The notes under the pieces are model-generated. The model ran no database searches, was not told where the DNA came from, and saw nothing but the letters and a program-made list of their open reading frames with translations. Shown here piece after piece: positions 59,646 to 63,963 of a stretch of DNA of 64,000 nt (position 1 is its first letter; every line of letters starts with the position of its first letter). Made by a program: the position numbers and the translations under genes. This stretch comes from Candidatus Methylomirabilis sp. (GTDB lineage: Bacteria; Methylomirabilota; Methylomirabilia; Methylomirabilales; Methylomirabilaceae), in the NCBI RefSeq assembly GCF_028716865.1, contig NZ_JAQUOY010000007.1:1-64000 (forward strand). The letters run 5' to 3'.

Positions 59646-61148
59646 GTGAAAGTCCTGTTGGTGCATCCAAGTTCCTTGATGTATGCTGAGATCTTCCTCC
59701 GGCTTGAGCCGCTGGGGCTGGAGCGGGTGGCTCAGGCCGCCAGAATGGCGGGCCACGAGGTCAGGCTCTTTGACCTTCAGGTCTTTCACCGTCAGGACTA
59801 CCTGCAAGAGCTCCGCGACTTTCACCCGCAGACCGTTGGCTTTTCGCTGAACTTTTTAGCCAATCTTCCGGAGGTGGTGGAACTGGCAAAGGAGACCAAA
59901 CGCCTCCTCCCCACCTGCTTTGTCTTTGTCGGAGGCCATAGCGCGTCCTTTATCCCGCAGGAGCTTCTCGATCATGCGGAGGGCGCTATTGACTGCATCG
60001 TGCGCGGAGAAGGGGAGCCGATCATGCCGTCCCTGCTGGATGCCATCCTGGATGGAGGACTCGAAACGCTTCCAGGGGTGGTGACAGCCCACGGCGTTGG
60101 CCCCCCGCCGCTGATGCTCCACGACTTGGACCGCACGTTGCCGGCGCGAGACCTTGCCCGCAGACGGCACAAATACTTTATCGGGGTCCTGGATCCCTGT
60201 GCCTCGATTGAGTTTACCCGCGGCTGCCCCTGGGACTGCTCGTTTTGCAGCGCGTGGACCTTTTACGGTCGAAGCTACCGCAAGGTCTCTCCCGAGGTGA
60301 TAGGGGAGGATCTGGCCAGGATGCAGGAGCCCAATGCCTTCTTAGTCGACGATGTGGCCTTCATCCATCCGGAGGACGGGATGGCGATCGGCCGGGAGAT
60401 CGAGCGTCGGGGGATCCGCAAGCAGTATTACCTGGAGACCCGGTGTGATGTGTTGCTCCGCAATCAGGAGGTCTTTGCCTACTGGAAGCGTCTCGGGCTT
60501 CGGTACATGTTCCTCGGCCTGGAGGCCCTCGACGAGGAAGGGTTGAAGGCGATTCGGAAGCGGGCCACGCCCAGCGAGAACTTTCAGGCCCTGGAGGTGG
60601 CGCGGAGGCTGGGATTTACCGTGGCCCTCAACATCATCGCCGATTCGGGATGGGACGAAGAGAGGTTTCGAATCGTTCGCGAGTGGGCCGCCGGTGTCCC
60701 CGAGATCGTCCACCTGACCGTGAATACCCCATACCCCGGGACGGAGACCTGGCACACAGAGTCGAGGAAGCTGACCTCCCTCGACTACCGGCTGTTCGAC
60801 GTCCAACATGCCGTCCTGCCGACGACGCTTCCTCTGAAGCAGTTCTATGAAGAGCTGGTCAAGACCCAGGCGGTCTTGAATCGCAAGCACCTGGGCTGGG
60901 CCGCGGTCCGGGGGACCTTCTCCACCGCCTCCAGCTTGCTTCTACAGGGTCAGACGAACTTCGTTCGGATGCTCTGGAAGTTCCCGCGAGTCTACAATCC
61001 GGAGCGGCAGTACGGTGACCACTTTAAAGAGATGACGTATGCGTTGACCCCGCCGCCGGATAAGCAGGCTGTCAAGCCGACGCAGGCCAAGCTCTTCGTT
61101 CATGCTCCAGCGGCCGCCGGGCAGCGAACGGCACAGGCTGAGGGGTGA
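59646..61148 (+). CDS. hpnR: hopanoid C-3 methylase (B12-binding radical SAM)
   Basis: A 500-residue enzyme that methylates hopanoids at C-3 with SAM and cobalamin. The start MKVLLVHPSSLMYAEIFLRLEPLGLERVA and the B12-binding domain are followed by the radical SAM cluster motif Cys194-x3-Cys198-x2-Cys201 (EFTRGCPWDCSFCSAWTFYGRSYRKVSPEV). This agrees strongly with HpnR by family memory; other B12-radical SAM enzymes share only the general fold. GGAGGAG precedes the GTG at 59646. Methanotrophs, including NC10, are known to make 3-methylhopanoids. Confidence 0.83.
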   Translation: MKVLLVHPSSLMYAEIFLRLEPLGLERVAQAARMAGHEVRLFDLQVFHRQDYLQELRDFHPQTVGFSLNFLANLPEVVELAKETKRLLPTCFVFVGGHSASFIPQELLDHAEGAIDCIVRGEGEPIMPSLLDAILDGGLETLPGVVTAHGVGPPPLMLHDLDRTLPARDLARRRHKYFIGVLDPCASIEFTRGCPWDCSFCSAWTFYGRSYRKVSPEVIGEDLARMQEPNAFLVDDVAFIHPEDGMAIGREIERRGIRKQYYLETRCDVLLRNQEVFAYWKRLGLRYMFLGLEALDEEGLKAIRKRATPSENFQALEVARRLGFTVALNIIADSGWDEERFRIVREWAAGVPEIVHLTVNTPYPGTETWHTESRKLTSLDYRLFDVQHAVLPTTLPLKQFYEELVKTQAVLNRKHLGWAAVRGTFSTASSLLLQGQTNFVRMLWKFPRVYNPERQYGDHFKEMTYALTPPPDKQAVKPTQAKLFVHAPAAAGQRTAQAEG

Positions 61149-61335: not shown

Positions 61336-62547
61336 GTGAAGAGGCAATTCATTGCGTTTGCGGTCGTGACGCTGCTGGCTGCCGGGCTGGCTTTGAGCTC
61401 TGAATGGTTCATGAGCCACGACCACTGGTATGCCAAGGAGCCGGAAAAGGACTTCGCTCTCGCCAGGCTCATCGCCGATATTCGGACGTCCACGTCGCAG
61501 TATCAGGATCTGAAACAGGCCCAAGCGGATGGCTATGTGCAGATATCGGGGAATGTGCCGTTAGAAGGCTATAATTTTCGTAAGGCAGGGAACACGCAAT
61601 TTGATTATCATCACCCTTCCACGCTCCTCTACGCGCAAAGAGAAGGGCGCTGGCAACTGGTTGGGCTGAAGTATATCGCCTCGGGAGTCCGTCCCGCTAA
61701 GACCCCGTTTCAGGGGATCGATTGGGAGCGGAGCTTGGCGATCTGCCGTTATGCGGACTGGCAGGAATTTCGATCGCCCTCCCAAGAAGCCTGCCCGAAG
61801 GTTCACCCTGAAACAAAGAGCGCGTTCACTGTCTGGTATCCGGACACGTGGGTCATCCGTCTCTGGATCTGGTATCCGAATCCGTACGGGTTGTTCGCCG
61901 GCATGAACCCTCTTCTGGCGCCGTTCGATGATCACATGATCCCGCCGGACGAAGCAGGAAGCTGGGAGACGTGGAAAGCGCATACGGAGTTCTCGAACTT
62001 TAACCATCACTTTTCCGGATGGTTGGTGCTCGTCATGGGGATGGCGATGACAGGCTCCGCCCTCTGGGGAGGTCAGAAGTCCAGGTATGCTCATTTGTGG
62101 CCGATGCTGACGCTTGGCGTAGCGCTCTTTATCCTGTACCGAAGCGACCCGGAGTATTGGCCGTTCGGCCCACGGACGCTGACGGAGCTCCTGGGTGACC
62201 GGGAGGCGATTGAGCACAAGCTTTCCGGGATCATCGTGCTCGCCATGGGATCCGTGGAATGGCTGCGGGCACGCCGCATACTCTCTCACTGGATATGGGG
62301 AATGATCTTTCCCTGGCTTGCCATCATGGGTGGAGTGACCCTGTTATTCCATCTGCATCCGATCAGCAACTTCAACTACGTCGGGCGAACCAATTCACCT
62401 CACACGACCGAGGGGGTCACCGCGATCCTTGCCGGCATGACGTATCTCATAGGATCGCTGGGGATTATGAAACAACGTTGGTGGGGCTTGGTTCCGGCTC
62501 TCTTCGTGATCCTGATGGGCGTCCAGCTTATCGTCTACATCGAATAG
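61336..62547 (+). CDS. membrane protein with histidine-rich helices, unknown function
   Basis: A 403-residue protein; I do not recognise a named family. A signal-anchor (residues 5-22) leads to an extracytoplasmic domain (about 30-190; DYHHPSTLLYAQREGRWQLVGLKYIASGV). The C-terminal half has five or six helices carrying His: FNHHFSGWLVLVMG, EHKLSGIIVLAMG, VTLLFHLHPISNFNYVGRTNSPHTTEG. Paired His in helices suggest metal or haem binding, similar in style to copper-resistance CopD proteins; this is inference. GTG start after GAGGAGG; convergent with the SRPBCC gene. Confidence 0.7.
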   Translation: MKRQFIAFAVVTLLAAGLALSSEWFMSHDHWYAKEPEKDFALARLIADIRTSTSQYQDLKQAQADGYVQISGNVPLEGYNFRKAGNTQFDYHHPSTLLYAQREGRWQLVGLKYIASGVRPAKTPFQGIDWERSLAICRYADWQEFRSPSQEACPKVHPETKSAFTVWYPDTWVIRLWIWYPNPYGLFAGMNPLLAPFDDHMIPPDEAGSWETWKAHTEFSNFNHHFSGWLVLVMGMAMTGSALWGGQKSRYAHLWPMLTLGVALFILYRSDPEYWPFGPRTLTELLGDREAIEHKLSGIIVLAMGSVEWLRARRILSHWIWGMIFPWLAIMGGVTLLFHLHPISNFNYVGRTNSPHTTEGVTAILAGMTYLIGSLGIMKQRWWGLVPALFVILMGVQLIVYIE

Positions 62548-62568: not shown

Positions 62569-63201
62569 CTATTTCTTCTTCTTCCACGTTCCGTCGGATT
62601 CGGTGCGCCGCTTCAGGCTCAACAGCGCGTTCGACAAGTCTTTTTTAATCATCATATCTTCCACGAATCTGGGGATAAACATGCCGCTGTCCAAGCTCGT
62701 TGTATATCGAAGCATAGTCCTACCATGGCCGTACGGGAGAAACTCCCAGGTACCGAACGTCTCCGCGATGTCGTGTTTCCTCGATTTATCCAGCGTCCAG
62801 CTCACTGTTTGCTGCTCAGGTTTGAAAATCAGATCGATCGTATAAACGATCACGCCAAGCGGAACGTGAACCGTCTCGGTAACCTTCATGGTGCCTTGGG
62901 TTTTTTCAAGGACCTCAACCTTCTCAAGCCGCGGCATAAATTCGCTGAACGTATGATAGTTCAACATGACCGCCCACACGGCCTCTGGTGGCCTGTTGAT
63001 GACGCAGTAGGCTTTGATTCTGGCGCTGCTCGTGCCGTCCTCAGCGGGATGGTCTTTTGCCTTCAGCACCACGCCGCCCTTTTCCATCCTGATTAATTCA
63101 CCGGCCGTAAGTCCGCTGGTCGCGGACTCACCGGCCCCGAAAGAGGCCGTCGGAAGCAGGAATACGAACGCGGCAAATACGAAGGGGATGACCTTGGCCA
63201 T
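62569..63201 (-). CDS. exported SRPBCC (START/polyketide-cyclase-like) protein
   Basis: A 210-residue protein with a signal peptide (residues 1-21, ending SFGA) and one SRPBCC helix-grip domain (AYCVINRPPEAVWAVMLNYHTFSEFMPRLEKVEVLEK... LGVIVYTIDLIFKPEQQTVSWTLDKSRKHDIAETFGTWEFLPYGHGRTMLRYTTSLDSG). Such domains bind hydrophobic ligands such as lipids or quinones. I choose the ATG at 63201. It lies 32 bases after the thioredoxin-like selenoprotein gene, probably one transcript. Confidence 0.83.
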   Translation of the reverse strand: MAKVIPFVFAAFVFLLPTASFGAGESATSGLTAGELIRMEKGGVVLKAKDHPAEDGTSSARIKAYCVINRPPEAVWAVMLNYHTFSEFMPRLEKVEVLEKTQGTMKVTETVHVPLGVIVYTIDLIFKPEQQTVSWTLDKSRKHDIAETFGTWEFLPYGHGRTMLRYTTSLDSGMFIPRFVEDMMIKKDLSNALLSLKRRTESDGTWKKKK

Positions 63202-63233
63202 ATGTGGCACGTCAAAGAGCCTCCAGGGAGCGT

Positions 63234-63581
63234 CTAGCGAAGCAATTGCTCGTAGGTCGCCGAGTCAAAGCCGACCATGAGCGTGCGACCCTTCCGGAGG
63301 GTCGGGGCTCGCAGGTTTCCGGTCGGTCCCAGCAGGAGCGCCAGGAGTTGCGCCCTGTCCGGCTTGTCTTTCCGCAGGTCAACATAGATAAGCTTCTGCC
63401 CTTTCGTTGCGTAGATCTCGTCTACCTCTCGGACCAGTGCGAGCGCTTCCTTGTCCTTCAGGGTCTTTTTCTTTGCATCCACCTCTAACGCAATTTCGAT
63501 ACGATGTTTCGCAAGAAACTCTTGCGACTTGGCGCAGCTCTTTCACCCGGGGCGGTGGTACCTCCAATCGATTCGTCCCAT
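63234..63581 (-). CDS. thioredoxin/ArsC-like selenoprotein with UxxC active site (recoded TGA)
   Basis: Translated through one TGA (63543-63545) as selenocysteine, the gene gives 115 residues: MGRIDWRYHRPG-Sec13-KSC16-AKSQEFLAKHRIEIALE..., then VDAKKKTLKDKEALALVREVD, RAQLLALLLGPTGNLRAPTLRKGRTLMVGFDSATYEQLLR. Both sides of the TGA read as one thioredoxin/ArsC-like domain, with Sec taking the first Cys of a CxxC. The ATG at 63581 has GGAGGAG six bases upstream. A standard caller would start at the internal GTG (63482) and lose the active site. It should act as a thiol-disulfide or peroxide-type redox protein; substrate unknown. It requires SelA/B/C/D elsewhere. Confidence 0.82.
63509..63527 (-). 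promoter_or_regulatory. candidate bacterial SECIS stem-loop
   Basis: On the coding strand TCGCAAGA-GTT-TCTTGCGA: a perfect 8-bp stem with a GUU triloop. It begins 15 bases after the TGA and its loop lies 23 bases after it, within the distance expected for bacterial SECIS elements. A G and a U stand in the apical loop, as SelB recognition requires in E. coli. Confidence 0.75.
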
Positions 63582-63963
63582 TGAGATCTCCTCCATTATG
63601 CCAGCACGGTACGTACAGACGGTCCAGGCCGCGCACTCACAGGTCTCGCTGAGAGGGTGCTTACCTAACAGCGGCTCTGGGTTCACCTGACCATCGCTTT
63701 GATTTCCACCCCCCATCTTGTCGGATACCCGAATTGTGTGCAAGGAGAAAGTGCTCAACTTCCGACCGAGGGGCAAGCGAAGCCATAGATGCTGAGCTAT
63801 CAACTCCCGGCATGAAGAAGAAATAATAGATGAGCCTGTCGAAGCGCAATAAGGAATCTGCGGGGCAGGCTCAGATAGCTTTGATAAAGGACTTGCGTAT
63901 TTGCGAGCCATTGTGTAATTTCATCACTTAAGTAATCTGACGTCAACCCCTACTGAGGTCCGT
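63582..63963. other. gene-free interval before the last gene
   Basis: Nothing coding is supported. A run of possible minus-strand codons (63661-63849) has no motif or ribosome binding site. Near 63830-63880 a partial GAGCCTGTCGAAG...CAGGCTC repeat occurs, related to the one at 61203. The selenoprotein promoter must lie here but I cannot single it out. Confidence 0.45.

Follow-up and report, generated by a model that had tools for sequence, protein, structure and literature searches.

Selenoproteins related to the arsenate reductase ArsC are already on record. A protein with a UxxC motif was reported as "Arsenate reductase 2" in the 2008 Global Ocean Sampling study (PMC2398784), and an "Arsenate reductase-like protein, UxxC" selenoprotein was named in a 2022 review (PMC9312934). 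A 2026 review (PMC13188914), which cites the 2008 study, includes the UxxC selenoprotein family together with its NF041106 model. Both reviews also contain an arsenate reductase ArsC selenoprotein form with a UxxS motif. The use of selenocysteine (Sec) in the phylum Methylomirabilota is likewise already known, since one of its genomes was predicted to hold 63 selenoprotein genes (PMC13188914).

The locus described here lies in a 64,000-nucleotide stretch of DNA from Candidatus Methylomirabilis sp., called the window below, for which a preliminary description had proposed an unannotated selenoprotein of the thioredoxin/ArsC type. The same description had suggested that the family was undescribed as a selenoprotein in this lineage. 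This was not borne out, as the protein matches the NF041106 model with 143.5 bits and the family appears in all three papers (PMC9312934, PMC13188914, PMC2398784).

Gene structure and family assignment

The reading frame starts with an ATG at 63581–63579 on the minus strand, continues for 11 more codons to a TGA at 63545–63543, and then runs for 102 codons to a TAG at 63236–63234. When the TGA is translated as Sec, the product (MGRIDWRYHRPGUKSCAKSQEFLAKH...) has 115 residues. The coordinates in the preliminary description proved to be exact, and its single in-frame TGA within one continuous frame, giving Sec13-x-x-Cys16, and its start preceded by GGAGGAG were both confirmed (Table 1). The core GGAGG is also present in most of the same-genus relatives compared. 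The expectation that ordinary gene callers would begin at an internal GTG agreed with the list of open reading frames (ORFs), which contains the corresponding 82-residue ORF. Among further TGA read-through candidates within the window, listed by length, none was convincing.

Table 1. Positions of the features of the predicted selenoprotein gene in the window.
Feature	Position	Strand	Remarks
Predicted selenoprotein gene, NF041106 ArsC family (seleno)protein	63234..63581	minus	115 codons including Sec13; translation with TGA = U
Ribosome-binding site GGAGGAG	63588..63594	minus	6 nt spacing to ATG; seen in sequence
TGA codon 13, predicted Sec, UxxC position 1	63543..63545	minus	TGA at 92/100 loci, Cys codon at 8/100
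TGC codon 16, Cys16, second residue of UxxC	63534..63536	minus	Cys in 53/54 aligned sequences
SECIS-like hairpin	63509..63527	minus	RNA folding and comparison; GUU loop at 63519–63517, 23 nt after UGA
Signature GPTGNLRAP, residues 85–93	63303..63329	minus	8/9 residues invariant; Thr87 in 53/54
Internal GTG ORF, 82 aa, without active site	63234..63482	minus	ORF list; expected from an ordinary gene caller

The translated protein matched NCBIfam NF041106 (ArsC_rel_Se_1; cut-off 85 bits) over model positions 1–107 of 107, corresponding to residues 4–110, and scored 135.8 bits against the same model in a six-frame search of the genome. The first position of UxxC, which is Sec or Cys in this family, is the TGA codon here. 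The Pfam ArsC model matched with 25.5 bits (cut-off 24). AlphaFold2 modeled the product as one intact domain with a mean pLDDT of 94.5 and a β-hairpin at residues 55–68. Residue 13 falls between strand 1 (residues 6–9) and helix 1 (residues 14–25) of the model, where such folds place their active site. The closest solved structures, by both sequence and fold, were Spx and YffB/ArsC-related proteins, at ≈20% identity and a TM score of ≈0.55. The thioredoxin-like, ArsC-type fold proposed at the outset is thus supported by NF041106, by Pfam ArsC and by the Spx/ArsC-type nearest structures.

Invariant positions in 54 aligned sequences were Tyr8, Arg10, residue 13 (Sec or Cys), Gly61, the stretch Gly-Pro-x-Gly-Asn-Leu-Arg-Ala-Pro at 85–93, in which Ala92 is followed by a proline, and Gly104. 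Residue 60 is Lys in the window protein and Arg in six of the 54.

Reading of the TGA codon

In the homologue alignment, no codon other than TGA, TGC or TGT occurred at position 13 in 100 loci, a count that includes the window itself and has a few contigs present twice. The alternation between TGA and Cys codons is far beyond chance. The loci came from Methylomirabilota, Acidobacteriota, Planctomycetota, Melainabacteria/Cyanobacteriota, Zixiibacteriota, Calditrichota, Nitrospinota and other phyla. Within the phylum of the window, a six-frame genome search with NF041106 gave 35 matches above cut-off, each with exactly one TGA. The genome of the window carries the machinery for Sec insertion: tRNA-Sec, selA, selB and selD were each found over cut-off, tRNA-Sec at 67.4 bits (gathering score 47) and with the anticodon TCA (UCA) according to ARAGORN. 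The selD gene itself (L097, G000:C3:103676-104599) has one TGA in frame, so that the selenophosphate synthetase is probably a selenoprotein too.

Coding constraint appears to act on both sides of the TGA. The 12 codons that precede it differed by only 1–5 codon changes among close relatives, with a conserved start, and the 100 nt before the ATG differed at 36–72 positions, compared without realignment.

In bacteria, a SECIS element is a stem-loop just 3′ of the UGA, with a small loop and a G within the first two loop positions. The hairpin downstream of codon 13 has this geometry. Its single-sequence z-score was modest (−1.6), so the comparison of related sequences has to carry the case for a SECIS element. 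Of the stem cells in 84 distinct Sec sequences, 85% were paired, compared with 57% (sd 1%) after synonymous recoding, counts that are inflated by kinship among the sequences, and the mean hairpin energy was −8.5 kcal/mol compared with −3.5 (sd 0.3) kcal/mol. When the 3′ arm was slid along the sequence, pairing dropped to 26–62%. The pair at offsets 17/31 was retained in 82 of the 84 sequences as G-C, C-G, A-T, T-A or wobble, a two-sided covariation, and the G that opens the loop was invariant. In the eight Cys genes, the hairpin was gone, with 44% pairing and a mean of −1.5 kcal/mol, no better than after recoding. Neither this contrast nor the compensatory changes depend on kinship alone. We interpret the hairpin as a Sec-specific, covarying SECIS-like element with a predicted role in decoding. 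An Rfam scan of the window gave no match at gathering score.

UGA codon 13 is predicted to be read as Sec here, almost certainly. The selenoprotein and UxxC reading of the preliminary description is supported by the homologues, the machinery, the hairpin, the coding constraint and the structure model. Cys- and Sec-homologues align across the TGA, as it had anticipated, and none of selA, selB, selD and tRNA-Sec is missing from the genome. The sequencing error that it had named as a possible refutation is excluded by the recurrence of the TGA in many independent genomes.

Relatives, gene neighborhood and a second ArsC-like group

The nearest relatives were found in genomes of the same genus, several of them at 82–85% identity, including Ca. 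Methylomirabilis oxygeniifera (L009) at 85%. The gene in another same-genus genome (G025; L115), whose assembly is a single contig of 2,752,854 bases, was 80% identical. No relative was found in phage records.

In a 94-row tree, which has few columns, is weakly resolved and has an arbitrary root, the Cys forms needed two state changes, and seven of the eight lay within one Melainabacteria-centered group, suggesting that Sec is the prevailing state and Cys a local one. Seven of the eight Cys-form genomes still had selB over cut-off, so the change to Cys did not come after the Sec machinery had been lost. The Cys relatives with selB but without the hairpin are L026, L027, L035, L041, L062, L080 and L086. 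Among Sec-form genomes, selB was over cut-off in 22 of the 24 sampled; the remaining two, G106 (L015) and G119 (L058), are draft metagenome assemblies, and the absence of selB there may reflect incompleteness. The second Cys of the motif was missing in two Sec-type relatives, L073:5001-5345 (UxxS) and L053:2437-2775 (UxxR), hinting at a one-selenol mechanism, at decay of the gene, or at a sequencing error or misreading.

No neighbor family was seen to recur across phyla. FolC/NUDIX/TPR genes occurred mostly at Obscuribacterales-type loci, ThiG at six Planctomycetota loci and an epimerase at a few loci. Gene neighborhood was rejected as a clue to function or substrate, the groups seen being lineage-specific. 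The window's own neighbors were not found beside the gene in same-genus relatives. The selenoprotein gene is followed after 23 nt, also on the minus strand, by a Polyketide_cyc2 (START-like) gene with a hydrophobic, signal-like start (62569–63210). By tblastn, no match to it was found near the selenoprotein gene in any fetched relative, including those of the same genus (flanks of ≈1.5 kb), and we therefore make no claim of an operon. A B12-binding radical SAM protein is encoded on the plus strand at 59646–61148 and is followed by a gene for a 403-residue membrane protein (61336–62547), which had no Pfam match over cut-off. A promoter and terminator scan gave no usable signal.

Among the matches in the phylum that fell below the NF041106 cut-off, ≈35 genes formed another ArsC-like group, almost all of them carrying a single TGA. 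Members such as L120–L136 and L138 (for example, L122 at G082:C49:16937-17245) have a pattern close to LYN..GUPTC..AREFLS...LVHEDG.LRVPV...GDLLVRGYTEELY and a strong post-TGA hairpin of their own, of the GCGAGGGAGTTTCTCTCGC type. Four members were scanned, and none was over any NCBIfam cut-off (best 57.7 bits vs 85); the group may be an unmodeled Sec subfamily. It is present in two genomes of the window's genus, G023 and G029, and the phylum-wide NF041106 search gave no member of it in the genome of the window.

Candidate function and comparison with known systems

We are highly confident in assigning the gene as a predicted NF041106 selenoprotein, ArsC/Spx-like and with a thioredoxin/glutaredoxin fold, in which Sec13 and Cys16 would act as a reductase pair. 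With the hairpin, which starts ≈15 nt downstream, as their guide, tRNA-Sec and SelB would decode UGA codon 13, and the protein is probably cytosolic. In the proposed mechanism, the Sec13 selenolate would attack an oxidized substrate. This substrate might be a disulfide, either in a protein or of low molecular mass, or else a sulfenate or an oxyanion adduct. The intermediate would then be resolved by Cys16 as a Se–S bond, and the Sec13–Cys16 bond would be re-reduced by thioredoxin or by a low-molecular thiol. The candidate activity is most likely that of a selenol-based reductase working through this bond; the substrate and reductant are guesses, since the gene neighborhood gives no lead. In light of the two relatives without a second Cys, resolution by Cys16 may not be shared by all members. 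It is possible, and we suggest it only tentatively, that the enzymatic activity would be new for the ArsC fold. The protein would then be a reductase that depends on Sec and has an anion or disulfide site of its own, made up of the invariant Arg10, Lys/Arg60 and GPTGNLRAP, with an insert β-hairpin, and it would be encoded by a stand-alone gene across many phyla.

If the TGA were instead a true stop, a sequencing error or the mark of a decaying gene, either the 82-residue GTG ORF or nothing would be made. The only observation in favor of this is that a plain gene caller yields that ORF. The same TGA is found across many phyla, and each of the 35 matches above cut-off in the phylum has it. The frame and the hairpin are conserved across it, and a truncated product would lack strand 1, helix 1 and the active site of the AlphaFold2 model. 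We give this explanation a negligible probability; the recurrence of the TGA in unrelated genomes led us to reject a sequencing error or a pseudogene.

With the TGA read as Sec, the protein might still be a genuine ArsC enzyme that reduces arsenate, is coupled to glutaredoxin or thioredoxin and uses Sec as its nucleophile, or it might be an Spx-like transcription regulator that binds RNA polymerase and uses Sec as a redox switch. The catalytic residues of ArsC are Arg60, Arg94 and Arg107, in the numbering of the plasmid R773 enzyme. At these places, which were located via the Spx alignment and not by direct alignment with R773, the 54 sequences have residue 60, Lys in the window protein, an invariant Ala92 and an invariant Gly104. 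The arsenate reductase model TIGR00014 had no match at E values up to 1, and no arsenic gene was among the most frequent neighbor families. Pfam ArsC, just over its cut-off, and the name "arsenate reductase-like" in the 2026 review (PMC13188914) favor an arsenate reductase. The replaced arginines and the unmatched TIGR00014 suggest that "arsenate reductase" is the name of a fold and not of a function here; lacking the catalytic arginines, the protein is predicted not to be a classical arsenate reductase, and we regard such an activity as unlikely. The case for Spx is that Spx chains were the best matches in the PDB by sequence and fold. The fold match was loose, however (TM ≈0.55, rmsd 6–7.5 Å), residues 55–68 are modeled as a β-hairpin, and Ala occupies the place of Spx Arg92 throughout the 54 sequences. 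The Spx/MgsR model TIGR01617 gave 38.2 bits against a cut-off of 75.05; by model score, the protein is not an Spx, and we consider a regulator of this kind quite improbable.

The selenol-based reductase that we favor can be placed among known systems. Spx/MgsR (TIGR01617; PDB 1z3e, 6gho) shares with it the ArsC-type thioredoxin fold, a CxxC at the matching position, a Leu-Arg ahead of a proline-containing turn and a Val-Gly-Phe/Tyr close to the end; it differs in having Cys at the Sec position and Arg92 at the place of Ala, and the window protein reaches only half of its model cut-off, matches its fold loosely and has the β-hairpin at 55–68. ArsC (TIGR00014) has the Pfam family, the general fold and a nucleophile where helix 1 begins in common with the window protein, which does not match TIGR00014 and has Lys, Ala and Gly at the catalytic arginine positions. 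In the UxxS selenoprotein form of ArsC, the second active-site residue is Ser, whereas it is Cys here. The Uxx-star glutaredoxin-like selenoproteins (NF041212, NF041114) are also small Sec proteins with a glutaredoxin-type β–α start; the window protein scored 16 bits against the NF041212 cut-off of 66, and, unlike them, has an ArsC-type insert and a second Cys.

The gene is an example, in Methylomirabilis-type methane oxidizers, of a short selenoprotein that ordinary gene callers truncate, and the covariation, the Sec-specific wobble conservation and the Cys/Sec pairs add evidence that NF041106 is a genuine, widespread Sec family. The window protein matches that model from end to end, with UxxC in the same place and no notable difference, and is a member of the family. 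It is a well-supported new example of a recorded selenoprotein family, not a new system.
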